NCBI RefSeq assembly: GCF_001192795.1
Contig: NZ_DF968181.1
Span: 1,602,974 to 1,666,973, forward strand
Source of the DNA: Flexilinea flocculi
GTDB taxonomy: Bacteria > Chloroflexota > Anaerolineae > Anaerolineales > Anaerolineaceae
Direction of reading: 5' to 3'
DNA length: 64,000 bases
Position 1 is the first letter of the stretch. Every line of letters begins with the position of its first letter. A program made the translations under genes and the position numbers. Under the pieces are notes generated by a model. The model was not told where the DNA came from. It searched no databases and saw only the letters and a program-made list of their open reading frames with translations. Below, in pieces: positions 9,080-63,997 of this stretch.

Positions 9080-9081
9080 AT

Positions 9082-11511: not shown

Positions 11512-11540
11512 TTGTCATCTTTTTTTAACTATAGTAAAAT
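11512..11540 (+). promoter_or_regulatory. Probable promoter of the hydrogenase operon
   Basis: TTGTCA (11512-11517) and TAAAAT (11535-11540) separated by exactly 17 bp. Predicted start near 11547 leaves a leader of about 55 nt before the first gene, whose ATG at 11603 is preceded by GGAGAAGAG. Confidence 0.55.
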
Positions 11541-11602
11541 TCTCCTTAATCACTTGTAAAAATTTTCACATAAAAAATACATTTGAATAAAACGGAGAAG
11601 AG

Positions 11603-12097: not shown

Positions 12098-12105
12098 GAG
12101 TCATA

Positions 12106-13992: not shown

Positions 13993-13995
13993 AAA

Positions 13996-15735: not shown

Positions 15736-15746
15736 TGTTTTTTTGC

Positions 15747-15784
15747 AACAGGCAGTGAATCGTGTATACCATTCACTGCCTGTT
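15747..15784 (+). terminator. Hairpin terminator of the hydrogenase operon
   Basis: 14-bp perfect stem AACAGGCAGTGAAT/ATTCACTGCCTGTT with a 10-base loop, 11 bp after the stop. The following T-run is weak (AATTATT), so efficiency is uncertain; a T-run precedes the stem on the plus strand. Confidence 0.7.
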
Positions 15785-16021
15785 AATTATTCACGAAATA
15801 TGGTAAATCATAATTGTTGAATTGAAGAAAAAACAACATTTCAAAATGTACGTTAAAAAATAATTATTTTCCTAATACTTATACAATTAACGCAAAACAT
15901 CCAAAAAAATAAAATTTGGAGAGGCTTATTTGAAAATAACGAATACTTCGATTTGCTGAATTCCATAATATCAACAAAACCAGCCACTTAATACGGAAAA
16001 GATAAAAACAATTTTTATTGC
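15785..16021. other. Intergenic spacer with possible decayed palindromic element
   Basis: No gene. TTATTCACGAAATATGG near 15787 and ACTTCGATTTGCTG near 15945 resemble the left and right ends of the dispersed element family, so a decayed copy may span about 15785-15960. The intact copy at 16022 follows directly. Confidence 0.3.
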
Positions 16022-16142
16022 CAGCAATTCGAAATTTGGTTTAACCTTATAAAAAAAGAGGAAGTATGTTGTTTTTATGGTTTTGTGTGGAACTAAGAAG
16101 CCATAAGAATAATAAGAATTCTTTACATACTTCGAATTATTG
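16022..16142. repeat. MITE-like palindromic element, copy A
   Basis: 121-bp element. Left end CAGCAATTCGAAATTTGG; right end ACTTCGAATTATTG is its imperfect inverse. The interior also folds: TATGTTGTTTTTATGG near 16065 pairs imperfectly with CCATAAGAATAATAAG near 16101. Located between the hydrogenase terminator and the FHA gene. Confidence 0.65.
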
Positions 16143-16242
16143 TTTAATTGATGCGAAAAATTAGAATTGTCTGTTATGATATAATAAAATTTTGATGAAT
16201 AAAAAAAAGAAGACCTTGATTGGTATAGAGTCGGGAGTAAAT

Positions 16243-41939: not shown

Positions 41940-43085
41940 TTATTGTTTCATGGCATATTTAATTTTGCTGCAAGCATTGCAGATATTTTTAACAATGCTG
42001 TCAACTTCTTCCAATGTATTGTACCGGCCATAAGAAATCCGAATTGCTGATTTTGCTTCTTCTTCAGATTGTCCCAATGCAAGAAGTACATGCGAAGGTG
42101 TATCATATCCCGCATTACAAGCGGAACTGGTAGAGACACAAATTCCTTTTAAATCAAGCAGATGCATCAGGGATTCTCCAGAAATCCCCTCAAATCTGAG
42201 ATTCACTGTTCCTGGCAAACGCTTTTCATAATCGCCATTAATGGATACAAAAGGCAGCTTTTTCAGAATACCTTTGACAGTTCTATCAACCAGTATTTTT
42301 AACAAGGATGTTGTAGCCTGCATCTCAGCAACATTTTCTTCCAGCGCATAACCCAGCGCGACAATACCAGCAACGTTTTCTGTCCCAGCACGAAAACTGA
42401 GTTCCTGTCCTCCGCCATGGATCAGTGGAATAATTTTTTTGCCAGAACGCTTATACAGAAAACCAGTCCCCTTGGCTCCATTAAACTTATGAGCTGAAGC
42501 GGAAAGAAAATCAACGTGCAGTTCTTTGACATCGACTGGAATATGACCGACAGCCTGGACAGCGTCCGTGTGAAAAAGAATTTCTTTCCCTTGGAGAAAT
42601 CTTCCAATTTCCGCGATTGGCTGAATGGTTCCAATTTCGTTATTTGCGAGCATCAATGAGACGAGTTTCGTGTTTGGTTTGATCGCTGCTTTTACATCAT
42701 CCATAGCAATTATCCCATTTTGATTAACTGGTAAATAGGTGATTTCTATACCGCTCGTTTCCAGGGCATAGCAAGCATTTAAGACAGAATGATGTTCGAT
42801 CGATGATGTGATCAGATGGATTGCCTGATTTGGAAACGTCTCAGAGACGCTTCGCAACACCCAATTGTTGGCTTCGGAGCCTCCAGACGTAAAAATAATT
42901 TCAGATGGTTGTGCGCCAATCGCATTGGCCGCTTGCTGTCTGGAATGTTCGATAGCGGCTTTCGCGTGTATCCCGATTGCATATTGGCTGGAGGCATTGC
43001 CGTATTGATCTCTCAAATACGGGAGCATCTTTTCATAAGCCAACTCAGAAATTTTTGTTGTTGCAGCGTTATCTATGTAAATCAC
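41940..43085 (-). CDS. Cysteine desulfurase, NifS/IscS/DndA family
   Basis: About 381 residues, PLP-dependent; takes sulfur from cysteine to give alanine and an enzyme persulfide. Motifs: IYIDNAATT at the start, TSGGSEANN, SIEHHSVLN, HTDAVQAVGH, the PLP-lysine ASAHKFNGAKGTG (Lys200) and the catalytic loop STSSACNAGYD (Cys323). A GTG at 43085 preceded by TAAAGG places the start exactly at the family's usual N-terminus, 13 bp after the previous stop; an ATG at 43136 would add 17 atypical residues inside the upstream gene. Last gene of the BREX-like operon. It may feed sulfur to BrxP, or be a general Fe-S enzyme. Confidence 0.9.
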   Translation of the reverse strand: MIYIDNAATTKISELAYEKMLPYLRDQYGNASSQYAIGIHAKAAIEHSRQQAANAIGAQPSEIIFTSGGSEANNWVLRSVSETFPNQAIHLITSSIEHHSVLNACYALETSGIEITYLPVNQNGIIAMDDVKAAIKPNTKLVSLMLANNEIGTIQPIAEIGRFLQGKEILFHTDAVQAVGHIPVDVKELHVDFLSASAHKFNGAKGTGFLYKRSGKKIIPLIHGGGQELSFRAGTENVAGIVALGYALEENVAEMQATTSLLKILVDRTVKGILKKLPFVSINGDYEKRLPGTVNLRFEGISGESLMHLLDLKGICVSTSSACNAGYDTPSHVLLALGQSEEEAKSAIRISYGRYNTLEEVDSIVKNICNACSKIKYAMKQ

Positions 43086-43098
43086 ACTATTGAAACCT

Positions 43099-43308
43099 TT
43101 AAAACAAATCGCAACCTTGTGCCTTAAATTCCTCAATTTTTTCCATCAGAAAGTCTTTATCCACATCAAGATAATCAGAAAGGCAATCTATGCAATAAAA
43201 AATCTTGGATCTTTTACTAAGAAATTTTTTCGTAAGCCCAATTTCATTCTTGCTGAGATTTTCTTTGCCGCAGACATAACATTTCTGCGCGTTAATAATT
43301 TCACTCAT
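43099..43308 (-). CDS. Small Cys4 (zinc-ribbon-like) protein
   Basis: About 69 residues. Two CxxC pairs (KCYVCGKENLSKNEIGLTKK and FYCIDCLSDYL) should bind zinc or an Fe-S cluster, followed by an amphipathic helix and a last cysteine (FKAQGCDLF). From memory, similar proteins sit beside cysteine desulfurases in Clostridia. ATG 43308 overlaps the BrxL stop (8 bp); an ATG 12 bp earlier at 43320 is also possible. The desulfurase start lies 13 bp downstream, so the three are translationally linked. Confidence 0.7.
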   Translation of the reverse strand: MSEIINAQKCYVCGKENLSKNEIGLTKKFLSKRSKIFYCIDCLSDYLDVDKDFLMEKIEEFKAQGCDLF

Positions 43309-44791
43309 CTTTTTTGTCATATTCAGGATTTATACTAAAGACAGGAATATCTTTCCCTCTGTATTCCACATCCAGAATACCTAATTGATACTTTATGGTA
43401 TCTCTCATTTTACGAGCTCTATCAAGGCAATATCGTTTAAACTCACGACAAGAAATATCGTTTGGCTCACGAACGTTTGGAAAAAGTAGCTTCAAATAAG
43501 CTGTTGCAATACGTTTCACCGCTTCTGTATCACGAGTATCTGCAGCTTCAGGAACTTCAACGAGTTCATCTACAACAGCCCGATAGCTCATGTCATTTCT
43601 AAGTTCATGAAGGATGGAACAAAAATATTCAGAATTTAGTGCCCAACCTGAAATTTTCAAGTCATCATTCATGCGAGGAATATTCCACCCTTTAATAAAG
43701 CCATGAAAACGTTCGATCAATGCGGATTCGTGGAACACCACAGGGAGCTCCTCAAACATGTTGGTATACCCATCGTAATCCATCGTCTCTTTCTTAATGT
43801 TTCCGCATAAGATAACGCCTGCTTCTGATGTCCCCTTGAAATTTCCGACGGTATAAAAACCGGACTCAAGATACCCTTTGAGCGCCGCTCGCATTTCATC
43901 TACGTCGGGAAATGATATCGTTTGGACCTCATCAAGTGTTACATAATCATTACCTGATATAAGTCCTTCAGTTTGTTTTGAGATATCGTAGAACATCTTT
44001 GCTCGACTCATCACACCACCACTTGAAAGCCAACCAAAACGACTGACACGACCAAAAAGATATGATTTTCCAGTTCCTTTGGGAGCAAGTTCGATTAAGT
44101 TTAGACGTTTCTCAACAAAAGGTAGCAATCGCGTCAACATTGTCAGCTTCTTTTCCTCATCGCCAAGATAGCCACTTGCATTATAATCGACCGCCCCCAA
44201 GAGCACATCTATCCACTCCGAAGTACTGAATTCCCTGCGAGCATCTTTATAGAAGTCAATGTCGATTGTATATGGGCAAAAACTCTTGAATGCTGTCAGC
44301 TTTATTTTTCCCTTATTTGTACTTTTTGTCTTATTTCTTGAATACTCTATATCGAGGTCATCAGGAGGGCGGTATCCTAATTCGACCATTCCCCAAGTCT
44401 CTCGGCTGCTTACTAGATCCGCCTTGCAAACATCCCACACTTTATCTTCAATGATGGTATCTTTGCTTGTCAATCCAAAATCTGGAAGTGAAAAGGAAAC
44501 TTCTCCAGTCTTGATATCGATATCTACTGATACCTTTGCAAGGAATTTGACTCGCTCATTTTCGATTATCAGCTTGTTCTTTATGGCTGTCCAATCATCT
44601 TTACGCGGCAAGTATGTTCGCACAAATTGAACCAGCTCGTCTGAATCGAAAACCCCATTCTCATCCTCAAATTTCTTTAAAAGCCAATCGCGCATAAAAG
44701 ACGGAAGACTTAATGCTGAAAAAAAATTACTTTTCTTGAGATCCTTGTAAACAACCATCTCATCAAAGCAGTTCCTGAGTTTTTCAATCAT
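43301..44791 (-). CDS. brxL: BREX protein BrxL (short form, AAA+ ATPase)
   Basis: 496 residues. Walker A ELAPKGTGKSYLFGRVSRFGWLSSGG at about 235-260 and Walker B YVTLDEVQ at about 283-290. The strings SSGGVMSRAKMFYD, MRAALKGYLESGFYTVG and VILCGNIKKE are characteristic of BrxL, the Lon-related ring ATPase of BREX. The length matches the shorter BrxL class; the Lon-like C-terminal domain of type 1 BrxL (about 680 residues) is not seen. It follows pglZ after 12 bp with GAGG upstream of ATG 44791. In BREX it acts in phage-DNA exclusion. Confidence 0.85.
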   Translation of the reverse strand: MIEKLRNCFDEMVVYKDLKKSNFFSALSLPSFMRDWLLKKFEDENGVFDSDELVQFVRTYLPRKDDWTAIKNKLIIENERVKFLAKVSVDIDIKTGEVSFSLPDFGLTSKDTIIEDKVWDVCKADLVSSRETWGMVELGYRPPDDLDIEYSRNKTKSTNKGKIKLTAFKSFCPYTIDIDFYKDARREFSTSEWIDVLLGAVDYNASGYLGDEEKKLTMLTRLLPFVEKRLNLIELAPKGTGKSYLFGRVSRFGWLSSGGVMSRAKMFYDISKQTEGLISGNDYVTLDEVQTISFPDVDEMRAALKGYLESGFYTVGNFKGTSEAGVILCGNIKKETMDYDGYTNMFEELPVVFHESALIERFHGFIKGWNIPRMNDDLKISGWALNSEYFCSILHELRNDMSYRAVVDELVEVPEAADTRDTEAVKRIATAYLKLLFPNVREPNDISCREFKRYCLDRARKMRDTIKYQLGILDVEYRGKDIPVFSINPEYDKKDE

Positions 44792-44803: not shown

Positions 44804-47047
44804 CTAAAATAATTCGTTAAATTCATTATTGACCCTGCCGCTCTTACCCAGTGCTATAATCTTGATTTTACTGACTAAATCATCTCCAACGTAAATGTCT
44901 GCGGGATATTCTCCCGTACGTTTTATATCGAACAGGGTTACAGAATAATGATTGGCATCAATTTTAACAGCGGGATAACGTTTACCTTTTAAAACAATTG
45001 AAACATCTTCGAATTCACTTTTTGAGAATAACGTGATTGCTGTTCCATCGCGGAAATCAACTGTCGCAGTTGGCTCAACGAGAGAAATATCTATATTTTC
45101 ATTTTTTAATTTTAATTCGATAACAGGAACGACAACTTCTTCCAGAGAAGCTCCGCCATGAACCTCAACATTCGCAGCACGACTTCCCTTAAATCTTCCA
45201 TAATCAGCAAGCACCAGATAACCGTTCTCTTCGGCAGCAAAAGGTAAATCATACGGCTCAAAATATTTACAACAACGCCCTGAATGTTCACCTTTGGTAT
45301 CTGTCTCATATTTTTCTTCCTTGCGGCGTAAAACGGCAAGACGGCTTGCTCCATGATCGCTGGCAATCAAAATTCGTTTATAGTGCCTCAGTGCGAGTTC
45401 TGTTGCTGCTTTATCAAGAACATTGGTTATGATTTCCAGTTCTCTTGCGAGATGAATTGGTAATTCATTATTCTCGAAGTTATATCCACCTGCTTCTTTG
45501 TGCTTAATCGTATCAAGTTCTTCGTTTTTTTCTTTTCCACTTTCTTGCCAATCATCAAAGAATCCACGGTTTTTTATCGTTATCGTGGGAAGCTCAGAAC
45601 GTGCGATATAAATTGAGAGTGACAGACCAAGAGAACGAGCTAATTCGGAAATGAATGCCAAATATTCAACACCAAGGGCATCAACCCAAAGTAAATAGGT
45701 ATCAGTTTTAACCAATCTCTCAATTATTTCATTACGAGTTGGCAAACGGTTATATTTTCTGCTTTGGGCAAATTCTTCGACCTTTGTTAAAAATTCATTG
45801 TCAAGCTTATTCGAAACCTTCTGTTTCTTGTATGCTTCAAAATAATCGGTTAACAGCGTAGATAAACCATCACATTTGAACTCGTATCTTTCTAAATAAG
45901 ACGATAATGCAGGATAAACCAGCGTGAGACAGGATGGAATGCCATTTTTTACAACCCATGAAATTATTTCTTCACGCTCTGTTCTCGTATTGTCAGTTAG
46001 TTTATAAATACTTTCATTAATGTTTTTACGGTTGTTGATGACGAAATTCGCTATTTCAGATTCCGGAAAATTATCAACCAGCGCCTTCCGTTCTAAATAA
46101 AACGAATGAAAACGGTTGTCAGTGTGGTTTATTTCAATAATTGCATTTAGTACATTATCCTTAAATTTATCAAATTGAGATGTAATTTCCAAAACATAAT
46201 TCAAATAACCAGAACCAGATACATTAATTCTTATTTTTAGAAAAATAAAATATAACCAGTTCCTGAAATCAAGACCTGCAACAAGATTATAAAAATCTAT
46301 GTTTAGATCATTTGTGAATCCGTATTTTTTAAATATTTTTTCAAACGAACCATTATTTTGATTTATTTCTGAAAGAAGTCTGGTCCATTGTTGTTCGTTT
46401 CCACATGAATATGGCAAATCAAATTTTGGGCAGGTTAACCGAATTCCTTCATATGAATTGGAAATCTTATGGAGCGTTGCTATTGCGTCATTTAAATTGA
46501 CAACTGTTTTTACAGCAATATTACCAGTCTTGTCGTTTTCAAGTTTCATTAATAAGGCTTTGAATCCCATCGTCGCTGTTATATCTACTGCAGGGGAGAC
46601 TAACGTGATAGAAAGATTACAATCAGTTTCATCCGAAAGACAACAGCGGCGTCTATCAAAGCGAGGATCGGATTGCAGATCTTTTACTTGTGTTTCGATC
46701 CCACATAAGAGTAATACCACTTTTATAGTTCCAAGATTCAGGTCTTTTAATTGCGATAAGACACTTGCTGCCTCACGTCTTCCACGAAGCGTAAGATATT
46801 CACCAAGTCCGATCAAAGCTACTTTTTTGCCGACAAAAGTACTATCAAGTGTCCTAAGGTCGTTAATTAATCCATCAATATCTGGCAACTTATCATCATT
46901 TTGACAATAGTCACTAACTTTAACAATGGAAAATCCTGATTCTGTCAATTTTTCTCTGACGCTCAAATAATTTCGGTCACTAACTGAATAAAAAAAAGGT
47001 GTAGAAACACTTGAGGCAAGGTACGCATTTACTTTTTCAATAGACAT
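44804..47047 (-). CDS. pglZ: BREX protein PglZ, alkaline-phosphatase superfamily
   Basis: 747 residues. The C-terminal PglZ domain is clear: LLWVDALGVEYL (metal-binding Asp456), RILIASDHGASRLAV (about 559-572) and NVEVHGGASLEEVVVPVIEL (about 626-644), the phosphatase-like HGG...E motif. The N-terminal 440 residues are helical and type-specific. PglZ is the one protein found in every BREX system; its biochemical target is not settled. It starts 7 bp downstream of brxC and is followed by brxL, the core order of type 4 BREX. Confidence 0.9.
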   Translation of the reverse strand: MSIEKVNAYLASSVSTPFFYSVSDRNYLSVREKLTESGFSIVKVSDYCQNDDKLPDIDGLINDLRTLDSTFVGKKVALIGLGEYLTLRGRREAASVLSQLKDLNLGTIKVVLLLCGIETQVKDLQSDPRFDRRRCCLSDETDCNLSITLVSPAVDITATMGFKALLMKLENDKTGNIAVKTVVNLNDAIATLHKISNSYEGIRLTCPKFDLPYSCGNEQQWTRLLSEINQNNGSFEKIFKKYGFTNDLNIDFYNLVAGLDFRNWLYFIFLKIRINVSGSGYLNYVLEITSQFDKFKDNVLNAIIEINHTDNRFHSFYLERKALVDNFPESEIANFVINNRKNINESIYKLTDNTRTEREEIISWVVKNGIPSCLTLVYPALSSYLERYEFKCDGLSTLLTDYFEAYKKQKVSNKLDNEFLTKVEEFAQSRKYNRLPTRNEIIERLVKTDTYLLWVDALGVEYLAFISELARSLGLSLSIYIARSELPTITIKNRGFFDDWQESGKEKNEELDTIKHKEAGGYNFENNELPIHLARELEIITNVLDKAATELALRHYKRILIASDHGASRLAVLRRKEEKYETDTKGEHSGRCCKYFEPYDLPFAAEENGYLVLADYGRFKGSRAANVEVHGGASLEEVVVPVIELKLKNENIDISLVEPTATVDFRDGTAITLFSKSEFEDVSIVLKGKRYPAVKIDANHYSVTLFDIKRTGEYPADIYVGDDLVSKIKIIALGKSGRVNNEFNELF

Positions 47048-47054: not shown

Positions 47055-50000
47055 TTATCCCCCGCTCGAAATTATTTCTATTCCGACAGTCATATTTTCC
47101 TTAACAAGTCGCTTCAAATATTGCTTAAGTTGTGAATCGTCCATATGGTCGATTTTTAACAAGGCTTTGTCACTGCCACCGGCGTTGTATTCCGCTTCAG
47201 CGAGTTGCTTTATTTTATTTTCAACAGATGGATTTCCTCGCCAATTATACGGATCAACCGTCAAACGTTCAAGAACATCACGCACTTTATCTGCGTTGGA
47301 AAGTAAAATGCGATATTCACCGATGATCCCGCGGAGAAAAGCTTCATTACGTTTCTCTTCGTTTGCTAAGGTTTCGAAAAGACTTGTTGATTCAAGGAAC
47401 TCAATTGCTGTTTGGATTTCTGCGTCTGTCACCCAGTTTCTGTTTAGAATATCGAATACAGTTTTAGCTCTCTCGAACTCATTTTCACACACACAGCAGA
47501 GGATCGGTGTCCTGTAACGATTTGACCATTCATATGGATTCTTTGTACCAGTTTTATCTTTCCATATTTTATACATTTGCGTCTTTAATTGATTTCTGCG
47601 AAATTCCTCTGCTGTTGCTTTCACCTTTGCGTTGCTGTCGGTTCTGGAAAGTTCAAACATTCCAGGAGGTAATTTGCATTTAATCTCACTAATATCTGAT
47701 TCGCTCAGATTTTCAAGATAAGGGGCGTAGATTTCGGAAAAGATTGCCTTATCGTTATTCAGCAGGAACTTAATCTCAGCTGTCTTTGCCATGAGTTCAT
47801 CATAAAAGGTTTTTATCTGATCGGGAAGCATATCCAATTGTTGATAAATTCTCATCAACAGATCAAGAAATCCTGCAATTTGCGGCATCTTCATTTTCAG
47901 TGCCTCACTGGAAATCCCGATGAATTTCAAACGCTCACGCCACTCCTTGAATGCATCCACTCGCGAATGTGCTGCTGTTGCAAGAAGGATATTGCTCTCT
48001 TTTACAATGCCATAATCTGTCAGGAGTTTACGAATTTCATTTTCGCCGGTTTGTTTATCCCATAAACAGGAATGTTTCACTGAAAATAAAACCTTAATAT
48101 CGGAAAGTACTTTATCAGTTGCTCCAATTTCTCCTGCAAGTGAAAGAATCTTTCCTCCCTCAAAGGTTTTCAGGAACTCAAGCATACCTTGTTGACAGTT
48201 ATCAATCTTTAACAAGGCTGACAAGCTGCCAGCAAGTGAGGTTTTTACCATAGCGATTTTACCAATTTCAACCGCCTTCTTATGGGCTTCGTTCCCTTCT
48301 TTCTGAACAAGTTCGATATATTTTTGAACCACATCAAAAACATCATTTTCGTCGACTTCGGCAAGGCACCATACCGGTAATCCAAAACTTCGCATCTTTG
48401 CTGATACGGCTATTGACGCCTGGCTTGCTGAAGAACATGAATTTGGCTGAATACTCCAAGCTTTTTCAGTAAGATCATAGAATGCCATTTCTTCAGCAGT
48501 CATCTTTACGATATATGTTGGATTTGGACTTTTCCCGATATAATTACCAATCATTTCCTTGAGTTTATCTGGAACCATTACATCATGACCGCCGGCGACA
48601 TCACTGTAGCGATACGGCTCATTGCTATATTCCTTCAGCAGAAAACCTGTAAGAAAAGCAGAAAGATTACATGGTGCAAAACCATACTTCTCTACAAGAA
48701 AATCATATATATCACCAATCGATATCTGCCCGTCACGATTAAAAGCATCTTCAATTAATTTGTCAATTTCTATCTTGATTCTCGAAATGGGCAGAGAAGC
48801 AAAGGCAGGATTTTTCCAATACGAATCGACGTTCCACACAGCAGACAGTAAATGCTTTTCAATCCCAGTTACGACCCCGCTTGTGCTCTGTATAATTCCG
48901 CTTTTAGCGGCGGCAGCAGGATTTGTAAGTTTTAACTGATTTTCAGTTAAATTTCTTGTAAAGTCAAAAACACAAAGAAATCCGGCTTTTAGCTCGAAAT
49001 GCGTTGTTACAATAGTCTGGAGAACACTTGCCACTCCCTGCCCGTTGCCAAGTATTTCACCTTCCTGATTTGCGTATGAGTAAACGATGAACCGACCATT
49101 ATAGATACGATTCTTCCATTCCTGGTCCAAAATGTGACGCGCTTTATCTGCACTTTCCCGCGATGAGGTGTTATTGCTGCCATTATAGTACAGTGCCATT
49201 GCAGAGTAATCCACATATTGCTCATAAGCTTCTATGCCAAGCGGTGTAGAAAGTGCATCGATGAATATGATATGTTCATACTGCTTTTCGGCGGCGGCGT
49301 TTTTGATCATTTTGCGGAAAGTATTGGCTTCGGCATCGTCTTTTGCAAATGCGATGACAGCATGGAAATGCCATCCATTGGGACGATCACGAAGGCTGTT
49401 AATGGTACGCGTGAAATCTGTTGTCGTTACCGGTGTGATTTTTCCTGTGTTTGGTTCGGACTCAAAACGTAAGCGAAGTGCAGGTGATAACGACAATACA
49501 TTCGCAAGAGAACCTTCTGTTACTAATCTCGCAGTTGTGCAATTTTGACGTACATCCTTTTTATAATTATCAATTTTCGTCTGGTCACCCGCCAGTACTG
49601 CTGCGACATATACTTCTCGTCCATTACTGATCGGGTTATTAACGAGTATGCCCTTATCCTTTAAACCTTTGGCTAATCGTTTACAAGACACATCTAAACC
49701 CGAAGTGATACCTTCAAAAACATAACTCAAATTTTGCTCAGTGGCTTTGAACAGATCAATCGTTCCGCCTAACCGTTGATCAATTGCTTGCATGATGAGA
49801 ATCGTTTTTAAGACTGCTTTTTCGTCATCCCGTAAATTCTGCTGTTGCGGAAATATATCCAAAATAAGCCTGATATCGGGGGTCAGATTGTCTTTACCTC
49901 TTTCATAGAAGAAATTCCATAGCATATCCACTGTAAGGAGTGGATGGTTATCATAGGGACCTGTTGTCTCAATAAACCATTGAAATGCCTTCACATGATC

Positions 50001-51203
50001 GATATCTGAGGATTTTATGAAATCAAACATACTGCGCTGATTCGATTTGAATGCAGAAGCGATGTTCTTTAAGATCAACGCTGTCATCGGATGAAGCGGC
50101 ATTATGTCCTTCATTACCTGTGGATTTGTGATTTTTGCGGTTCTCATCACCATTTCTCGTGATGTACTGACTCTGCTGTTCAAATCATCCGCCACTGTAT
50201 TCCAGGAATCTTTTGCTGCCGGTTTCACATTAAAGGCATGACCGATAAGATTAAACGCAATATTATCTGGCAATGTGATTTGTACCGGGATGAAGCGATC
50301 GCGAACTTTCGTCCATGTCGCATCAGCAGCGTTGAACAATTGTCCTGATTCGTGTGTTACAACAATCAAGTAAAACGGTTTATGGTTAACAAGCTCAGCA
50401 ATCTTCTGGAACTCGGAAAGGCTCTCTCGGTTGTTCTTGAAATAGTCAGAAAATTCATCCCATATAAAAACGATTTTTATGTTGTTCTGATCGATAATGT
50501 CTGTCAGCCAGGCAATGAGCCTGTCAGAATCAATGTTCAATGCTGTGATACCTTCTTTATCAGCCAGACGGAAAAGATTATCCATTAACGTTTTTATTTC
50601 GCCGCCCCTATGCAGCGTATCTAATACTTGATTCGCATTTGTTTGAGAAAAAAGTGCAGACCACTCCGGTTTCTTCAAGAGGGCATCCAAGAACAACTTG
50701 TGTGTGGGTTCATCAATCCAGGCAATGACGCTTTCTTTTAACGTATTTTCACCTGCATAGAGTTTTTGTTCATCGAGCGAAGATTTCAGGCTGTTTTGAA
50801 TAGCAAGGAAAAAATCACGCGGAGAACCGATGCTGCCAGAGGCATAGCGATAGGCGGTCACGATGCCTTTTTGTTTATGTCCGAGAATTTTTTCAAGCAG
50901 ATCGGCTTTATTTTTCAGCGGTTCATAACGATTCCAATATTCACGGAGTTCTTCTTCCGGTACTTCAAGAATCTTTTTCAGAGCATAAGCGCATTGAGAT
51001 TTTCCTGTCCCATATGCACCTTCTATCCAAAGGGATCGCTTTTCCTGACGTGAAAGCGCACGCTCTAAATTGGTCAGCATATCAATGAATGTCTCGTGCG
51101 GATATGTACGCATCCAGAAATCCGGACTTGCTTCAGCAATTGAGGAATCGTTGATTTGTGGAAAATACTGGTCGTCAATATCAAAATATTCTCGGTAAAG
51201 CAT
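47055..51203 (-). CDS. brxC: BREX protein BrxC/PglY, large P-loop ATPase
   Basis: About 1382 residues. Starts MLYREYFDIDDQYFPQINDSS, with Walker A (EGAYGTGKSQCAYAL) near residue 62 and Walker B (VFIWDEFSDYF) near 245, then VVTHESGQLF as sensor-like strand. The long C-terminal remainder is helical. BrxC/PglY is the common ATPase of BREX systems. ATG 51203 is chosen because AAGGGGGGAAAA precedes it, only 16 bp after the brxP stop; an upstream frame to 51278 overlaps brxP without a ribosome site. Confidence 0.88.
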   Translation of the reverse strand: MLYREYFDIDDQYFPQINDSSIAEASPDFWMRTYPHETFIDMLTNLERALSRQEKRSLWIEGAYGTGKSQCAYALKKILEVPEEELREYWNRYEPLKNKADLLEKILGHKQKGIVTAYRYASGSIGSPRDFFLAIQNSLKSSLDEQKLYAGENTLKESVIAWIDEPTHKLFLDALLKKPEWSALFSQTNANQVLDTLHRGGEIKTLMDNLFRLADKEGITALNIDSDRLIAWLTDIIDQNNIKIVFIWDEFSDYFKNNRESLSEFQKIAELVNHKPFYLIVVTHESGQLFNAADATWTKVRDRFIPVQITLPDNIAFNLIGHAFNVKPAAKDSWNTVADDLNSRVSTSREMVMRTAKITNPQVMKDIMPLHPMTALILKNIASAFKSNQRSMFDFIKSSDIDHVKAFQWFIETTGPYDNHPLLTVDMLWNFFYERGKDNLTPDIRLILDIFPQQQNLRDDEKAVLKTILIMQAIDQRLGGTIDLFKATEQNLSYVFEGITSGLDVSCKRLAKGLKDKGILVNNPISNGREVYVAAVLAGDQTKIDNYKKDVRQNCTTARLVTEGSLANVLSLSPALRLRFESEPNTGKITPVTTTDFTRTINSLRDRPNGWHFHAVIAFAKDDAEANTFRKMIKNAAAEKQYEHIIFIDALSTPLGIEAYEQYVDYSAMALYYNGSNNTSSRESADKARHILDQEWKNRIYNGRFIVYSYANQEGEILGNGQGVASVLQTIVTTHFELKAGFLCVFDFTRNLTENQLKLTNPAAAAKSGIIQSTSGVVTGIEKHLLSAVWNVDSYWKNPAFASLPISRIKIEIDKLIEDAFNRDGQISIGDIYDFLVEKYGFAPCNLSAFLTGFLLKEYSNEPYRYSDVAGGHDVMVPDKLKEMIGNYIGKSPNPTYIVKMTAEEMAFYDLTEKAWSIQPNSCSSASQASIAVSAKMRSFGLPVWCLAEVDENDVFDVVQKYIELVQKEGNEAHKKAVEIGKIAMVKTSLAGSLSALLKIDNCQQGMLEFLKTFEGGKILSLAGEIGATDKVLSDIKVLFSVKHSCLWDKQTGENEIRKLLTDYGIVKESNILLATAAHSRVDAFKEWRERLKFIGISSEALKMKMPQIAGFLDLLMRIYQQLDMLPDQIKTFYDELMAKTAEIKFLLNNDKAIFSEIYAPYLENLSESDISEIKCKLPPGMFELSRTDSNAKVKATAEEFRRNQLKTQMYKIWKDKTGTKNPYEWSNRYRTPILCCVCENEFERAKTVFDILNRNWVTDAEIQTAIEFLESTSLFETLANEEKRNEAFLRGIIGEYRILLSNADKVRDVLERLTVDPYNWRGNPSVENKIKQLAEAEYNAGGSDKALLKIDHMDDSQLKQYLKRLVKENMTVGIEIISSGG

Positions 51204-51219
51204 TATCTTTTTCCCCCCC

Positions 51220-53547
51220 TTAGAAAAGTTCGAGTACATCTGATGAAGTTTTATCTTTTGCAAGCGTAATTTTCTCAAGGTCGTGCGTAAACGACGCTGA
51301 AATGAATTCCGGGTACTTCGCAGAAAGTCCCAACAACAGCGGTGTCATGTCTTCCCGATCAAGCCCAAATATCCTTGTCGGGCTGATCCCGTCTCGGTCG
51401 ATGCTGTCATTTAATAGCGTGGCAAGAGTAAATTCCTTATAATCATTACACTTCTCGGCGAATTTGAATAAACCATACAACAGCACGCGCGGGTCAGACA
51501 CGGAACACTTCGTGCGAACAAGGTCACCTTCCTCGGTGACATAACCGAAATGAAGATTCATGCCTAGTGGTATTTCGGTCAAGCGTTTGAATGCTTTGAC
51601 GATGGACTTTGCATCTTTAGGCTTTACATTGGCAGCAATTAACATATCTTCAACTGCCTGCCTTTTATAGATATGTCCGATGTCCAGACTCTCTATATAC
51701 CATTCAATTTGAGGATTCTCGTTTACAAGGTTGACAAGAATAAGACCCCAAGCTGTATTGGTTTCCCACCCAATTTTCGAAATCAATGAAGCAAACTTGG
51801 TGAAATGATTTTTTTCATTCAGAGAAGCATCTTTTAGGAAACGTCTAAAAATATCATACATCATCGGTCCTAGCGTATGCTCAGAGTAAAACGCTTCTTT
51901 GAGTTCAAAGAATGATCGCAACCATTCTGGTTTAGGCGCATGATCTGCAAATGAGTTTAGGCTTTTCATAGAAGATCCTCCTCCTTGTGGATGTCTTAGG
52001 GAATGGAATAGTAAACATCCGCTATCTATGTTATGACAATCGTGACATCTACTGCAATTATTTATTTTTATTTTTCCTTCTAAAAAAGTAATTGCTCTTT
52101 TCCTACAATTTGTTTCACAAACACGGCAGGCACTGCAATAAGATGCTTTTCTAAATACTTGGCGGAATAATTTTCCAAAGGCTGGATTATCTTTCAAGAT
52201 TATTTCTGGAATAGTAACAATATAGCCTGTCTTATTTATCTTTAGATCAAAGTCAAAAACAGAATCATTAAAAAATATGGAGTAATTATTTTCCCTTTTG
52301 AGAAGTACACCAATCGTTTTTATCCATTCTGTCCAATCGTTCCTTGGGTTTGTAACTTCAATAATCAAGTTGCCATTATATATTTTTTCAATGCAACGAT
52401 TCGCATTGTTAGTGATTTCTCTTCCATTCTTACGTGCATTCCAACCGCCATTAATGATATAAGATTCGGCATTTTTTTTCTGTTTTTCTCCATCATATGT
52501 TTGATTAATTAGATTGATATATCTATCGATCTCGGTTTTGTAGTTATACCTACGAAAATAATCACTTATGCCTCCTGACATAGGGCAAAACAAGCAACCT
52601 GCGCGCCCGTTTCCTTTTTTATATGCTTCATTGATAACTATGTTATTTGCATATATATACGACCATATTTCTGCAGATGTCCACTCAAGAATTGAATTAT
52701 GACTGTACTGTCCTCTTTGCTTCTTTCCGAAATTTTCATATTTGTAATCACTTCGTGTGGCACTTTCATGTGCTCGAACTCCGACAAAGTCAAGTCCGAT
52801 ATAATTATTAATACCAGTGATCTCACGCAGAAGAAGTGTTTGCGGTGTGCTTTTATGGACACTGCAGCACCAGCGGAGCACCCTTGACGGAGGTCCGAAT
52901 AACTTCCAGGACTGTTCCGGATCGAAGTGAGACTTTGCGATATAGAATGGAATTTCCTCCTGCTCGCACAACTTTTGGGTTTTGTTTACGACATCATACG
53001 TATCAGGAAATTCCATGCCGGTATCGCCGAATACAACGACAAAGCTGCCCTTTGGAAGCGCTTTTTTCACAAGGTCAAGCAGAACAGCGCTGTCCTTACC
53101 GCCTGAAAATGCGACATGAAAAAGATCAAGTCTGCCTTTATATTTTTCATAGACTGCTAATATTTTTTTAACTGTCGTCTGCTCAATAATTTGAAGGATA
53201 TCGAGGTTTGCCGAGACCATCGCCTGAATATCTACAGGGCGCAGGAAGTTCCCATCCGGTTCGGGTACTATTGGAATACCATTTTCGTCTGTCGGAATGA
53301 TAATCTCCGGAGCGGTATACAGGTTGCCGCCTTTCAACTTTGCAACACAGACACCTCTATACCAATAGGTGTTTGCCTCAGCCCACATGTACGGCTGTTC
53401 CATTTGTTTGTCATAGTTCCAATATTGATCAAAACCCAGAATGTCAAGCTCCTGGGCGTATACCGGACGTGGTTCTTTTGAAAAGCCAGTAGGGGATGTA
53501 TTTAGCAACAATCCACCTGTCATACGGTCGTATGTATAAGAATACAA
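51220..53547 (-). CDS. brxP: BREX type 4 protein BrxP: PP-loop (PAPS reductase/DndC-like) enzyme with Fe-S motifs and DUF4007-like tail
   Basis: 775 residues in three parts. (1) PP-loop domain: HVAFSGGKDSAVLLDLV (SGGKDS at 148-153), FGDTGMEFPDTY, RWCCSVHK (Cys227/228), and GRAGCLFCPMSGG (317-321): the cysteines of the DndC/PAPS-reductase family. (2) Ferredoxin-like insert at 471-511: CSACRVCETNC and CSRCHDC....C, enough for two clusters. (3) A helical domain from about 529 (FADHAPKPEWLRSFFELKEAF) like DUF4007, which I associate with Dnd-type systems. Such enzymes adenylate a substrate and pass sulfur or electrons. The start is TTG 53547, 2 bp after the previous stop, with AAAGGG upstream; ATG 53523 is possible. 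Confidence 0.85.
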   Translation of the reverse strand: MYSYTYDRMTGGLLLNTSPTGFSKEPRPVYAQELDILGFDQYWNYDKQMEQPYMWAEANTYWYRGVCVAKLKGGNLYTAPEIIIPTDENGIPIVPEPDGNFLRPVDIQAMVSANLDILQIIEQTTVKKILAVYEKYKGRLDLFHVAFSGGKDSAVLLDLVKKALPKGSFVVVFGDTGMEFPDTYDVVNKTQKLCEQEEIPFYIAKSHFDPEQSWKLFGPPSRVLRWCCSVHKSTPQTLLLREITGINNYIGLDFVGVRAHESATRSDYKYENFGKKQRGQYSHNSILEWTSAEIWSYIYANNIVINEAYKKGNGRAGCLFCPMSGGISDYFRRYNYKTEIDRYINLINQTYDGEKQKKNAESYIINGGWNARKNGREITNNANRCIEKIYNGNLIIEVTNPRNDWTEWIKTIGVLLKRENNYSIFFNDSVFDFDLKINKTGYIVTIPEIILKDNPAFGKLFRQVFRKASYCSACRVCETNCRKRAITFLEGKIKINNCSRCHDCHNIDSGCLLFHSLRHPQGGGSSMKSLNSFADHAPKPEWLRSFFELKEAFYSEHTLGPMMYDIFRRFLKDASLNEKNHFTKFASLISKIGWETNTAWGLILVNLVNENPQIEWYIESLDIGHIYKRQAVEDMLIAANVKPKDAKSIVKAFKRLTEIPLGMNLHFGYVTEEGDLVRTKCSVSDPRVLLYGLFKFAEKCNDYKEFTLATLLNDSIDRDGISPTRIFGLDREDMTPLLLGLSAKYPEFISASFTHDLEKITLAKDKTSSDVLELF

Positions 53548-53549
53548 GA

Positions 53550-56500
53550 TTAATGTTCCCTTTCTCGCAGGGTTTTTACCTGTTCAATCAACTCATCGAT
53601 TCTGTTATAAACTCGTCTGCCAAGATAACCACCTTTATACAAATATTCGATCACTGCAGTTTTCGTAAGGTCTACGTTGGAGGCAGCCACTGCATCTGTG
53701 ATAATTTCAGGGTAAGAAAGACCGCAATCCTTACGGATAATCACCCCGGCATTTTGAGAGTTCATCGTCAACGAATCAAATCGATATCGATTACTAAATC
53801 TTCGACAGTAACTTTCAAGGAGAAACAGATTCCATAACTGCCCACAATCGGGAAAAGCAGCAAATGTCGTAACACCTTTCAAAGGTAGATATTGACCTGT
53901 CACAAAAAGATCAAGCGCTGAATCAATCGCTTCGCAATCGAAATGAACAAATTTTTCAGCCACAAAGCTTTCTTCAGATGTCCTTACTAAAATGGAATAC
54001 CCTGCTTCTAAAGCGATCCATGTGTATGTATCACCAGTCAATTCTTGCTCATATTGAATCAACTCTTTCAGAGAACATGTATCTATCGAACGACACTTTT
54101 CTTTCATTAATAAACGTGCATCAAGTGAATCGCCTTTACGAGTAATGATTTTACCGTGCTTGTCATAGTAATCCGAAAGTGCTATTGAATAAACTGCGCT
54201 ATGGATTGCTGTAAGCGATAATTCATTATTGTGTTCTTCAATTGCTTTAAGCGGAATATCGTTGATGGATGCATAGCCAGAAAGAAGACATGTGTTTTCG
54301 ACATATTCCTGGATTGAGAATCGTTCTTCCTCCGAGATATCAACCATCCCGATATGGGTGTATACATCTTTCGAATTCCAAATAAAACCATTATCCATCG
54401 CTAAAGCATACTTGATTTTTTCAAGCGGTATGTAAGGCAATCGCGCTGCAATCTGATCGTAATCTAATAAAACATCATGGTTCCAAATTCGAAGAATTTC
54501 ATTTTTTATGATCGACAATTCTCTGCTTCGATGATCATGGATCGTGAAGTAACTTGGCTTGTGTGTAAATGCTGGATAAAGACTCATTAATATCTGTTTT
54601 AACATATCATCGGAGATTATCCTTCCATCAAATAACCAGCTTTCATGTCGATCATAAAAGGAAGAATAATAAATGATCTCCACTCCGCAAGTGGTCTGTG
54701 AATCAATCTCTTCTTTCAACCTGCTTTCGGTTTCTTCTTCAATAACATATACTTTTCCTTGAAATAATGTTCCACATAAACGAATTACTGTTTGCAAATC
54801 TTCATCGAAAAGAGGAATGTTTTCGGCATGATCATCCGCGGAATAATTGCGAAATCGCTTCAGCTCGATTGGAGAGTCAAGCCTGAATCCATTCGGAAAG
54901 TACTTGACCAAAATATCCTTAATTATCGTGATCACTGCTTCATCAATTACTTTTGGAATATTTCGAACAAGCAGTTGTTTTTTTACGTCAGAAATCATTC
55001 TATTTTCCGGCGCATAGGTAATGACCACATCTTCAAACGGGATTTTACAATGCCGCAGAAGATTCCCAATTACAGTGACGATCGTATTCGCGCTGTAATT
55101 GACACTGATCCACTTGCCGTTCGAAAGCAACCTGCTGGTGATTTTTCCCGGTTTTTGGTGGAGGAAAAAGGGTTGACTACCATAAAGAGATATCCAATTC
55201 AGAACGGGGAGACAGGGATTACATTCTTTTATTAACCATTCAGTAATTTCAACCAGAACGCTGTTCCAATATTGTGAATCTATAAAAATCTCTTTGCCTT
55301 GGATCTTACAGGATACCGGTTTTGTATTTTGATATTGTTCCGGTTTATTAAAGTCAACAACCTTACCAGGATCGGAACGAGCGGTATCGGGTTTCGGCTG
55401 TTCGATCGAAGGTGTTGGTTTCTGTATGAAATTAAACAGTATTTTTTCATTCTGGTTTTCTGTTAGATACGATACATATCGGGAAAGACAGTTCAATCCT
55501 TCAGATAGACGGCCATAATGTTTCTCGTTAATACTCTCGAAGTTCGGAGCTGCCTTATAACGCTCCCAAAGCATATTGAATTCCTCCACCGACTGACAGG
55601 AAAAAACATTCCGGTTCACTCCGGGAGGCAAGTCTAATTTTGCCGGAGCATATTTCAGGCTGTGGACATATCGCTCGACGACAAATTTCAAATATCGTGT
55701 TCCATTTTCATTTCGCTGCGTAATCAACCAGGCAATCATCTCATCCGGATTGATTTCTTTTAAATAACGTTTTTCAGGTTGTTTTGTCTTTGGAAGAATT
55801 GACGATTCTTCAATTTTCGTTTCAGAAGAAATGGTTACAGTTTCTTCTACTTCTTTTTCGAATGGAAAAATTTCTATTTCTTCAAAATCCATTTCAGATG
55901 GAGGGAATTCCCATTCACCCATTGTTGTTTCGAATGGATTGCTTGTCGGATCATCCTCCTCAATTTCAGATGGAGGGATTGCCGATGTTTCCATTGCTAT
56001 TTCGAATGGATTGCTTGTCGGATCATCCTCCTCAATTTCAGATGGAGGGAATTCCGATGCTTCCATTGTTATTTCGAATGGAATAATTGCTTTCTCTTCT
56101 ACTGCTGTTTCGAATAGATCAATTGTTGGTTCATCCTCCTCAATTTCAGATGGTGGGATTGCCGATTCATCCAACACTGTTTCGAATAGATCAATTGTCG
56201 GTTCATCCTCTTCCATCTCAGATGGAGGAATTGCCAATTCATCCAATGTTGTTTCAAGTGGAATAATTGCTGTCTCTTCTACTGCTGTTTCGAATGGATC
56301 AATTGTTGGATTTTTCTCATCCATTTCAAAAGGATTGATCGCTGTTTCTACATTTTGAATAGTAGGTAAAATAATTGTTGCCGTGTCCGAGTCTGCTTTG
56401 GTATCCCTTCCTGCAATTGTCATTACCGAAAAGTTCGGCTCATTGGCTTGCTGAAGATATGGCTTTTCCTTTAGAAATTTTAAATAAAGTTTTCCCACAT

Positions 56501-56756
56501 GAATAAATTTCTTATAGGTGTTTCTTTCCAGGATTTGCATTTGGACTGATTTTAATAATTTTTGATAAATTAGCTCAAAAGTAAAATATTGCGATATATT
56601 CCAGAAACTGGTCTGACATATTTTTTTACGGATGGCATATTCTGATACTTTTTCCAAACAGGAAACAACGACACTCAGGTCATAGCTTTCCGAGTTTCCG
56701 GCATTTATCCATTTTATGAATTCCTGTTTTAAGCCAAAAATTCGAATATCTTGCAT
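53550..56756 (-). CDS. Large unrecognised protein of the BREX-like operon with 12-residue repeat tract
   Basis: 1068 residues, first gene of the operon. Residues 1-100 and about 335-440 look like two copies of one helical module: F/W-x-W start (FIKWINAG, MIAWLITQR), a YA... helix, and the end LYLKFLKE / RYVSYLTEN. This module type occurs at the N-terminus of restriction-related proteins. Between them (about 139-322) is a highly acidic 12-residue repeat tract. The C-terminal 550 residues (from ITEWLIKECNPC) are alpha/beta with helix-turn-helix-like stretches (LLDYDQIAARLPYIPLEKIKYALAMDNGFIW) and end GGYLGRRVYNRIDELIEQVKTLRERE. No catalytic motif recognised. Its place suggests a target-recognition or regulatory role in defence. 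ATG 56756 has no close ribosome site, so the start is uncertain. Confidence 0.8.
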   Translation of the reverse strand: MQDIRIFGLKQEFIKWINAGNSESYDLSVVVSCLEKVSEYAIRKKICQTSFWNISQYFTFELIYQKLLKSVQMQILERNTYKKFIHVGKLYLKFLKEKPYLQQANEPNFSVMTIAGRDTKADSDTATIILPTIQNVETAINPFEMDEKNPTIDPFETAVEETAIIPLETTLDELAIPPSEMEEDEPTIDLFETVLDESAIPPSEIEEDEPTIDLFETAVEEKAIIPFEITMEASEFPPSEIEEDDPTSNPFEIAMETSAIPPSEIEEDDPTSNPFETTMGEWEFPPSEMDFEEIEIFPFEKEVEETVTISSETKIEESSILPKTKQPEKRYLKEINPDEMIAWLITQRNENGTRYLKFVVERYVHSLKYAPAKLDLPPGVNRNVFSCQSVEEFNMLWERYKAAPNFESINEKHYGRLSEGLNCLSRYVSYLTENQNEKILFNFIQKPTPSIEQPKPDTARSDPGKVVDFNKPEQYQNTKPVSCKIQGKEIFIDSQYWNSVLVEITEWLIKECNPCLPVLNWISLYGSQPFFLHQKPGKITSRLLSNGKWISVNYSANTIVTVIGNLLRHCKIPFEDVVITYAPENRMISDVKKQLLVRNIPKVIDEAVITIIKDILVKYFPNGFRLDSPIELKRFRNYSADDHAENIPLFDEDLQTVIRLCGTLFQGKVYVIEEETESRLKEEIDSQTTCGVEIIYYSSFYDRHESWLFDGRIISDDMLKQILMSLYPAFTHKPSYFTIHDHRSRELSIIKNEILRIWNHDVLLDYDQIAARLPYIPLEKIKYALAMDNGFIWNSKDVYTHIGMVDISEEERFSIQEYVENTCLLSGYASINDIPLKAIEEHNNELSLTAIHSAVYSIALSDYYDKHGKIITRKGDSLDARLLMKEKCRSIDTCSLKELIQYEQELTGDTYTWIALEAGYSILVRTSEESFVAEKFVHFDCEAIDSALDLFVTGQYLPLKGVTTFAAFPDCGQLWNLFLLESYCRRFSNRYRFDSLTMNSQNAGVIIRKDCGLSYPEIITDAVAASNVDLTKTAVIEYLYKGGYLGRRVYNRIDELIEQVKTLREREH
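55791..56342 (-). repeat. Acidic 12-residue (36-bp) tandem repeats
   Basis: Residues about 139-322 of the 1068-aa protein repeat AIPPSEIEEDEP / TIDLFETAVEEK steps: each step is 12 residues with an x-I-x-P-F/S-E pattern. Around ten to fifteen steps are readable. DNA-level identity between neighbours (GATCATCCTCCTCAATTTC occurs repeatedly) means the tract can expand or contract in frame. Confidence 0.85.
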
Positions 56757-57109: not shown

Positions 57110-58082
57110 CAGGGGTAGGGGCAACCCTTGCTGTTGCCCGATGTCGATATGGTTCGTCATGGTCCATCCTGGGCAGGGACGGTCGGTATCCCGATGTATT
57201 ATCTCTGGCATGACCTGTTTTGGGCAGGGACAAGCCCTGCCCCTACAAATTTTTTTATACAAATGGATAACCGATTTTTTGTAGGGGCAACCCTTGTGGC
57301 TGCCCGATGTCGATATGGTTCGTCATGGTCCATCCTGGGCAGGGACGGTCGGTTTCCCGATGTATTATCTCTGGCATGACCTATTTTGGGCAGGGACAAG
57401 CCCTGCCCCTACAAAATTTTTTATACAAATGGATAACCGATTTATTGTAGGGGCAACCCTTGTGGCTGCCCGATGTCGATATGGTTCGTCATGGTCCATC
57501 CTGGACAGGGACAAGCCCTGCCCCTACAAATTTTTTTATACAAATGGGTAACCGATTTTTTGTAGGGACAACCCTTGTGGTTGCCCGATATCGATATGGT
57601 TCGTCATGGTCCATCCTGGGCAGAGACGGTCGGTTTCCCGATGTATTATCTCTGGCATGACCTATTTTGGGCAGGGACAAACCCTGCCTCTACGATGAAA
57701 TTGGATAACCGATTTTTTGTAGATGCAACCCTTGTGGTTGCCCGATATCGATAGGGTTCGTCATGGTCCATCCTGGACAGGGACAAGCCCTGCCCCTACA
57801 AATTTTTTTATACAAATGGGTAACCGATTTTTTGTAGGGGCCACCCTTGCGGTTGCCCGATGTCGATAAGGTTCTTCATGGTCCATCCTGGGCAGGGACG
57901 GTCGGTTTCCCGATGTATTATCTCTGGCATGACCTATTTTGGGCAGGGACAAGCCCTGCCCCTACAAATTTTTTTATACAAATGGATAACCGATTTTTTG
58001 TAGGGGCAACCCTTGCGGTTGCCCGATATCGATAAGGTTTGGGATGATCGTTTTTGTGTAGGGGCAACCCTTGTGGTTGCCC
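57110..58082. repeat. Array of GC-rich composite hairpin repeats
   Basis: About 1 kb of alternating hairpins. H1 is GGGCAACC-n5-GGTTGCCC (about 57119, 57285, 57451, 57566, 57722, 57837, 58003, 58060). H2 is GGGCAGGG-ACAAG-CCCTGCCC (about 57222, 57390, 57504, 57669, 57776, 57941). H2 and the next H1 are joined by CCTACAAA...TTTGTAGG around an AT-rich spacer. Between H1 and H2 is a longer block (GATATGGTTCGTCATGGTCC...GGCATGACC) present in some units and deleted in others, giving units of about 166 and 115 bp. Many spurious reading frames run through it. Confidence 0.85.
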
Positions 58083-63112: not shown

Positions 63113-63997
63113 TTAAGTTTCCTGACTTTCCTGATTATCAACGTCAAATATTTTTTTATAAACCGAATCCAACTCGTCATTTGCCAAGTGAGTATATCGT
63201 TGGGTGACAGCGATGTTGGTATGTCTCGCAAACTCCTGGGCAATTTTCAAATTACCGGTTTTCTTGAGCACACAAGTTACAAAATAATGACGAAAAGAGT
63301 GCGGTGTGATCGTACCGACAGCTTCTTTACCAAGACATTCTTCAACGCGCTGCGAAACGATCATTCTTCCTGTTTTTGTTGTGATGGGAAGAATATTTTT
63401 TCCTGCGCCTTTATCATGTCTGGCAAAAATTGGTAATACAGCTAATTGCCTGGACGAATTTCCGTCTAAATTCCCTCGAGTGTGCAAATAACTGCGCATA
63501 GCCAATATTGATCTTTCTGAAAATCGGATAACTGCTTGTTTGTTTCCTTTTCCTATAATAATAGCTTTTTTTTTAAACCAATCGATATCGCCTCGTCTAA
63601 GATTACATGCCTCATGAATCCTCAATCCAGTATCTGCTAATGTGATCAGAAAAGCACAGTCTCGTAAATTGATTAATGAATCCATTTCATTTTCACAGAG
63701 TTTAGAAGGCAGCTCAAGAGCGTAAGAGATTACTTTTTCAATATCCTCTTGCGGAAATTGGGGTAAACGGATACCAGGTTTCCGAATTCGCTGTCCGATC
63801 AGCTGCTTCACTTGGAATAGATTAATATCGATTAGGTTTTCAGCAGTTAAAAATTCAAGGAAATTTTTATAGACATTAATATACAGATTTTCTGTTGCAG
63901 AAGAATAATATTTCAAGTATTTTGCAAATTTTGCCGTAAATTCCTCAGTAATTTCTAACACTGACGATTCTGGAGAGATTTCGTTTTCTGCCAGCAT
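63113..63997 (-). CDS. Tyrosine recombinase (XerC/D-like integrase), start at or beyond window edge
   Basis: 294 residues readable from ATG 63997, three bases from the end of the window; translation may begin further right. N-terminal SAM-like core-binding domain (TEEFTAKFAKYLKYYSSATENLYINVYKNFLEFL) and catalytic domain with Arg (DTGLRIHEACNLRRGDI), Lys-strand (IIGKGNKQAVIRF), HxxR (TPHSFRHYFVTCVL), His (FARHTNIAVTQRYTHL) and the nucleophile Tyr (RYTHL). All catalytic residues are present. It could be a chromosome-dimer resolvase or the integrase of an island outside the window. Confidence 0.85.
   Translation of the reverse strand: MLAENEISPESSVLEITEEFTAKFAKYLKYYSSATENLYINVYKNFLEFLTAENLIDINLFQVKQLIGQRIRKPGIRLPQFPQEDIEKVISYALELPSKLCENEMDSLINLRDCAFLITLADTGLRIHEACNLRRGDIDWFKKKAIIIGKGNKQAVIRFSERSILAMRSYLHTRGNLDGNSSRQLAVLPIFARHDKGAGKNILPITTKTGRMIVSQRVEECLGKEAVGTITPHSFRHYFVTCVLKKTGNLKIAQEFARHTNIAVTQRYTHLANDELDSVYKKIFDVDNQESQET

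Follow-up and report, generated by a model that had tools for sequence, protein, structure and literature searches.

A modular protein encoded directly upstream of brxP as a candidate component of BREX type 4 systems

Bacteriophage exclusion (BREX) systems of type 4, with the genes brxPCZL, are described in the accessible parts of two papers as phosphorothioation systems (PMC11931770, PMC12707154). A 2026 survey of BREX counts 457 BREX-4 taxa in its accessible text; its type 4 section gives five known components, including BrxC, a phosphoadenosine phosphosulfate (PAPS) reductase and DUF4007, discusses PglZ and BrxL, and adds a cysteine desulfurase and a small zinc finger (PMC12839542). No leader protein is mentioned in that section, neither "hypothetical" nor "uncharacterized protein" occurs anywhere in the accessible text, and no such protein was found in the accessible BREX-4 literature, which does not extend to the key experimental study of type 4. 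Here we analyze a window of 64,000 nucleotides from Flexilinea flocculi (contig NZ_DF968181.1, positions 1,602,974 to 1,666,973 of the forward strand) which contains a BREX type 4 operon headed by a gene for a 1068-residue protein. This protein, the leader, is additional to the component list of the survey. An earlier note made from the DNA letters alone had proposed it as a new BREX-4 component, and the comparisons reported below strongly support this proposal.

Several described proteins resemble the leader in part. Triple helix-turn-helix (HTH) proteins such as BrxA, DUF4007, SspB and DndG likewise are HTH or winged-helix arrays in a phosphorothioation or BREX context, as outlined in the accessible portions of PMC12839542 and of PMC10853773, the latter describing triple winged-HTH proteins and HARE-HTH in phosphorothioation systems. 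The leader differs in having about seven units, and BREX-4 already has DUF4007. A relationship to DUF4007 by sequence found no support when profiles were compared (hhalign probability 1.3 against the C-terminal region of BrxP); kinship at the level of fold is possible. The C-terminal half of PglW of BREX type 2, according to the accessible text of PMC12839542, has an alpha-CTD-like domain followed by winged helices, as does the leader of a second BREX-4 operon in the same genome, a likeness by architecture. Unlike PglW, none of 70 leaders has a kinase or NERD match (Pfam, E<=0.01). HsdS and the target-recognition domain of PglX are alike only in their manner of working, with a constant part and an exchangeable recognition part; no Methylase_S or methyltransferase match at E<=1 was found in the leader (Pfam, NCBIfam), which may have a distant target-recognition fold. 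BrxR is an operon-leading winged-helix protein, the WYL regulator of type I BREX, from which the leader differs in that no WYL domain was found in it (Pfam up to E=1).

Conservation of the leader beside brxP

BrxP served as bait in place of the leader, which made the genes upstream visible without presuming similarity among them. An alignment of four BrxP proteins was scanned against the contigs of 84,980 species, each represented by a single genome, and the best 80 of at least 327 confirmed relatives were analyzed; the sample therefore leans to BrxP at 42% identity or above. Among these best 80 loci, a long co-directional open reading frame (ORF) lies almost always upstream of brxP. Of the 76 loci having 300 bp or more of sequence ahead of brxP, 75 encode there the C-terminal domain of the leader, about 450 residues and represented by a profile built without the leader of the second operon (P0008). 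In the loci carrying a leader, every match lies on the brxP strand, and the opposite strand gave no match. The median gap to brxP is 3 bp, with 20 bp or less in 62 of 67 full-length cases, and the order BrxC-PglZ-BrxL follows brxP in 60 of the 61 loci with room for it. Co-occurrence with brxP in other genomes, which the earlier note had suggested examining, is near-constant.

Three loci (L058, L108 and L109) begin 1-7 bp before brxP and hold nothing upstream to test, and a partial match in L054, with 155 bp upstream, falls outside the 76. With L054 counted, 76 loci have matches, and in 67 of these the match runs at full length through a single frame. The nine remaining loci fall into three groups: contig ends truncate L045, L054, L060 and L113, the reading frame is broken in L057 and L068, and in L090, L104 and L110 the match covers no more than roughly the first 260 of the 458 profile positions. 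Two tandem leaders are present in L092.

Searches were also anchored on the leader itself. Among 400 genomes of the phylum, the C-terminal domain was detected in two genomes in three copies, and BrxP (E<1e-200) in the same two genomes, also in three copies, of what is apparently the same set. Five of 400 genomes of the order gave six matches; those at BREX-4 are in both operons of the source genome, in G008, a genome of the same genus, and in G010. The phylum and order searches used an alignment with the P0008 row, on which the matches in G009-G011 lean; without this row G010 (E~1e-37) and G011 (2e-34) are still found and G009 is not. Three of four matches in viral contigs adjoin brxP, the fourth being on a contig too short to tell, and the one C-domain match in phage records adjoins brxP. 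Plasmids gave no leader-family match in 72,556 records. Including the source operon, nine of the 11 testable distinct places anchored on the leader are at brxP. In L145, a divergent BREX-4 locus, a leader with strong head modules has weak C-domain similarity (E=3.8e-6, filters off). Homologues were not found mainly away from BREX loci and no housekeeping fold was seen, the two outcomes that the earlier note had named as counting against its proposal. With 75 of 76 brxP loci and nine of 11 leader-anchored places, the status of the leader as a BREX-4 component is close to shown.

The source operon qualifies as BREX type 4 by the presence of BrxP, BrxC, a BREX-4 PglZ and BrxL, together and intact (PADLOC, NCBIfam; Table 1), and its leader has the family-defining C-terminal domain directly upstream of brxP. 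Two base pairs separate the leader stop from the brxP start codon, a TTG at 53547, in agreement with the earlier description of a first gene 2 bp from brxP. The likely start of brxC, by inspection, is an internal ATG near 51203. The class-V aminotransferase downstream of brxL is probably the cysteine desulfurase tied to BREX-4 in the type 4 section of PMC12839542. The second complete BREX-4 operon of this genome (L036, C3:1113000-1132500, 2760-16673) has a leader with a different head, composed of two RNA polymerase alpha-CTDs and a sigma-r4; its C-terminus is matched at E=1.1e-44 by the profile built without it. A cysteine-desulfurase-like gene was noticed by eye past brxL in this second operon.

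Table 1. Features of the leader gene and its operon, with positions in the window
Feature	Position	Strand	Basis or remarks
Leader protein gene, 1068 aa	53550..56756	-	ATG start; heads the BREX-4 operon; modular head and constant tandem winged-helix domain
Module S copy 1, SAM-like helical, residues 12-96	56469..56723	-	AlphaFold2 mean pLDDT 82
Acidic repeat linker, residues 130-325	55782..56369	-	12/24-residue repeats
Module S copy 2, residues 340-428	55473..55739	-	Iterated profile
Module M, residues 467-581	55014..55358	-	SeqA-like fold in AlphaFold2 model; profile, structural match
Constant C-terminal domain, residues 615-1064	53565..54914	-	Profile, AlphaFold2
brxP, PAPS reductase with C-terminal BrxP/DUF4007-type region	51220..53547	-	PADLOC BrxP E=6e-267; Pfam PAPS_reduct E=1.5e-29
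brxC	47055..51278 (ORF as called)	-	PADLOC BrxC E=0
pglZ, BREX-4 type	44804..47047	-	NF033445 E=3.7e-184
brxL	43301..44791	-	PADLOC E=2.1e-228; TIGR02688 E=7.7e-116
Class-V aminotransferase	41940..43136	-	Pfam Aminotran_5 E=6.3e-85

Searched with the leader, PADLOC to E=0.1, Pfam and NCBIfam to E=1 and PDB sequences to E=10 all returned no match. PHROGs matches were weak (E=0.049 and 0.22), and a BFVD fold search found none at E<=0.001. The absence of a known catalytic motif, reported in the earlier note, agrees with the blank Pfam, NCBIfam and PADLOC searches. A chance ORF was ruled out since homologues occur under record titles of many phyla, and a housekeeping protein by the lack of Pfam, NCBIfam or PDB matches and by the occurrence of the family almost only beside brxP. 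An enzyme was rejected as well, as there is no catalytic family and, by eye, no recognisable catalytic signature among the conserved residues.

Near-identical direct repeats, about 166 bp apart and 94-97% identical, are located upstream of the leader gene (57115-57560 of the window), and related repeats were seen upstream in G008 and elsewhere on the G008 contig. Some 6 kb upstream of the operon, a phage-integrase family gene (63116-63997, Pfam E=1.1e-23) may mark a mobile island. Variants of the core genes were observed elsewhere. Viral contigs L139-L143 (e.g. L142 6001-9351) carry two adjacent BrxP-like genes which match residues ~1-523 only and lack the DUF4007 part; no BrxC or leader was found within the stretch examined. 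By eye, a DNA adenine methylase-like gene follows the pair in L140 and L142. It is possible that these contigs represent phage-encoded DNA sulfur modification. In L106 (174-3748) and L108 (1-3107), a full-length or nearly full-length BrxP is followed by a stand-alone gene matching its C-terminal DUF4007-type region. In G275 (L037 6336-10512) brxC is split into two overlapping ORFs, which may mean that this operon is broken or that a sequencing error is present.

The constant C-terminal domain

From an 82-sequence alignment, AlphaFold2 gave a confident model of residues 455-1068 (mean pLDDT 94.1, pTM 0.71). Residues ~606-1068 form about seven consecutive HTH or winged-helix-like units, a division read from the predicted secondary structure; in the model, three-helix units follow one another, most of them with strands, which bears out the HTH-like C-terminus described in the earlier note. 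The most conserved positions are G623, L719, R925, D945, P969, W975, N976, L980, E981, S988 and G1004. The best Foldseek matches in the PDB (best E 5e-5) include the tandem winged-helix arrays of UFL1, SelB, Dcc1/Ctf18 and ESCRT-II, with TM-scores on the query of at most 0.16, indicating that the leader does not share their overall arrangement. FokI also appeared in the fold search as a weak match (E=0.29). Single units resemble LOTUS, Z-alpha and IclR domains in VIA-align comparisons (Z 5-6.6).

The domain is acidic, with a median isoelectric point (pI) of 5.3 and a net charge of -13 over 33 rows, a hint, and no proof, of protein docking. Its mean identity is the lowest of the five operon proteins, 27% vs 34-65% in 48 complete loci. 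In 48 loci, a set that leaves out L051 and L117, its distances correlate with those of BrxC and PglZ at r=0.93 each (BrxC vs PglZ 0.95), of BrxP at r=0.84 and of BrxL at r=0.78, as is expected of any co-inherited operon genes.

One possibility is that the leader is purely a scaffold whose winged-helix array holds the BREX-4 complex together, with the heads (the variable N-terminal parts) as accessories. The Foldseek matches to arrays of protein complexes (UFL1, ESCRT-II and Ctf18/Dcc1, plus the RNA-binding SelB) and the acidic pI would fit this role, as would the existence of headless leaders, 17 of 67 having fewer than 70 residues before the constant domain. A scaffold would leave the frequent presence, reshuffling and exchange of heads unexplained, and we consider it improbable.

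Modules and turnover of the heads

Heads span 1 to 951 residues, leaders cut by contig ends aside. In the source leader, residues 1-105 have a pI of 9.5, and two copies of a helical module of about 85 residues, S (residues 13-96 and 340-428), belong to one family, as an iterated profile seeded with the second recovers the first at E=5e-23; BLASTP alone did not link residues 1-110 to 329-440. Residues 131-325 between them consist of 30% D/E and 3% K/R, with a net charge of -53 over residues 130-325. Tandem Repeats Finder detected a period of 36 bp (8.2 copies, 57% matches) and, at 83-90%, periods of 72 bp, corresponding to 12 and 24 residues. Both copies of the helical module and the acidic 12-residue repeat had been recognized in the earlier note, to which the 24-residue period can be added; module M (residues 467-581) had been overlooked. 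In 79 leaders, S was detected in 33 (1-4 copies per leader), M in 21 and a third module, T, in 26. The median pI of the three modules is 7.8-8.3.

The top structural matches of module M are three DNA-bound SeqA entries, two of them with hemimethylated DNA. Since SeqA reads hemimethylated sites, this structural match provides a lead that module M could read the modification state of DNA. Module S of the source leader has no match to Pfam Phage_int_SAM; three of 70 homologues match SAM_5, two match SAM_1 and one matches HTH_26. By structure, S resembles the integrase N-domain 3nrw (Z 5.9), and retroviral matrix proteins score higher (Z 6.7). A HARE-HTH match in the head of the G008 leader (E=1e-4, 23.1 bits) is under the Pfam cut-off of 25.9. 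HARE-HTH, alpha-CTD, sigma-r4, integrase SAM and HTH_26 are DNA-binding families. The suggestion in the earlier note of a DNA-recognition or regulatory protein is plausible, favoured by head modules that are SAM-like or SeqA-like or that match HARE-HTH, alpha-CTD or sigma-r4. Another possibility is that the heads recognise phage proteins or structures and not DNA sites, with the constant domain switching PglZ or BrxL on. Fast head turnover and head swapping would suit an arms race, small modules of helices are able to bind proteins, and the likeness of S to retroviral matrix proteins points in the same direction; the modules that can be named in homologues belong to DNA-binding families, which makes such a phage sensor a doubtful alternative.

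For module T a resemblance to an N-terminal domain of HNH restriction enzymes, and perhaps to the sulfur-binding domain, was considered; PDB and Pfam profile searches gave only noise, and we make no claim. In G010, a stand-alone 233-residue gene lies between a sigma/alpha-CTD leader and brxP (L125 6120-6821, E=5.6e-9) and presents the T head module in trans. A defence-like cluster of the same genus (L127 3460-15999; HATPase, Z1, DUF4420, AIPR) encodes a 431-residue M-module protein (3460-4755, E=6e-18) and, on the opposite strand, a relative of the second-operon leader.

Head architectures change rapidly on the tree of the constant domain. This tree of 67 leaders leaves out L051 (the same as L049, at 100% identity, in both leader C-domain and BrxP), L112 and L117 (identical to L114 and cut at its start). 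The 19 architecture labels require 40 changes vs 47.4 (minimum 43) in 500 shuffles, which indicates some inheritance and very fast turnover. Presence of module M follows the tree no better than shuffled labels (14 changes vs 16.0, minimum 12). In 68 pairs whose BrxP proteins are 70-85% identical, the constant domains average 57%, and the heads are alignable over less than 20% in 72% of the pairs, a figure inflated by the headless pairs included in the count.

The best single evidence for exchangeable heads comes from G008: aligned sequences of its operon and the source operon show a natural swap of heads that ends where the constant domain begins. Upstream DNA and head are 79-84% identical at the DNA level. 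Over residues 1-461 the two heads share 75% protein identity, and windows of 20 residues stay mostly at 60-100% as far as ~624; this near identity ends at residue ~625, the border of the constant domain, beyond which 20-residue windows fall to 10-60%. Protein identities of the core are 55% for BrxP, 41% for BrxC, 35% for PglZ and 76% for BrxL. The break at the border indicates that head and upstream DNA share a more recent history than the constant domain and core genes.

Because upstream DNA moved with the head, as expected for a matched head and operator, the swap also fits an operon autoregulator: the leader would bind its own upstream region and control expression of brxPCZL, as the WYL protein BrxR does in type I BREX. 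The first position in the operon, the tandem winged helices and the alpha-CTD and sigma-r4 modules of relatives are consistent with this role. But the co-movement could be plain linkage, a protein of 460-1400 residues is unusually large for an operon regulator, and the tight spacing with brxP and the acidic constant half count against this role. Distances which track BrxC and PglZ at r=0.93 also speak against it, though co-inheritance gives that too, and no WYL or other regulator family was found in the source leader (Pfam, NCBIfam). Autoregulation is in our view unlikely, if somewhat less so than the scaffold and phage-sensor roles.

A possible role in the choice of sites

We favour, at roughly even odds (about 0.5), a reading in which the leader is an overlooked, nearly invariant BREX-4 subunit whose constant domain docks and whose heads read DNA and bias site engagement. 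The acidic tandem winged-helix array of the C-terminal ~450 residues would dock on the BREX-4 complex (BrxP/BrxC/PglZ), and the exchangeable N-terminal heads would read DNA. They would thereby bias the sites engaged by the phosphorothioation/restriction machinery, or whether DNA counts as self. A more specific form, which we hold tentatively and at somewhat less than even odds, is a dedicated head-swapping specificity subunit with a constant docking array and interchangeable DNA-reading heads, resembling HsdS in its logic but made of unrelated parts. A single phosphorothioation/restriction engine could then be re-aimed whenever heads recombine at their border, and headless forms would leave recognition to DUF4007.

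Several observations weigh against a DNA-reading BREX-4 subunit. The leader is missing from L106, where the contig begins 557 bp before brxP, and none was found in the divergent annotated archaeal BREX-4 of Methanosphaera plasmid pNP174 (L146 10399-20121). Leader relatives in G011 and G009 have no BREX-4 gene in the 19 kb around them; the second-operon-type protein adjoins a ResIII helicase in G011 and is near a HATPase/Z1/DUF4420/AIPR cluster in G009. The sigma/alpha-CTD subfamily thus occurs outside BREX-4, in G009 by the weaker match. SSP systems install phosphorothioates with SspBCD and are not known to have such a leader, and recognition may be supplied by DUF4007. Correlated distances, as noted, are no more than co-inheritance predicts. 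The match of module M to SeqA (Z 7.6-7.9, root-mean-square deviation 2.8, 98 aligned residues) does not reach Z 8, and sequence comparison gave it no support. Heads are partly inherited, as S (15 changes vs 22.3), T (10 vs 20.5) and headlessness (7 vs 15.3) track the tree better than shuffles. Finally, the 17 headless leaders imply that no head is needed there, so that the core job would reside in the constant domain and the heads would tune it.

How BREX-4 chooses its phosphorothioation sites has no explanation in the accessible literature, and a subunit that is nearly always present, with interchangeable heads of a DNA-binding type, makes this choice directly testable. If the favoured reading is true, the four-gene brxPCZL definition and the PADLOC 2023 protein models omit a component of the system, and heterologous BREX-4 tests without the leader may mislead.

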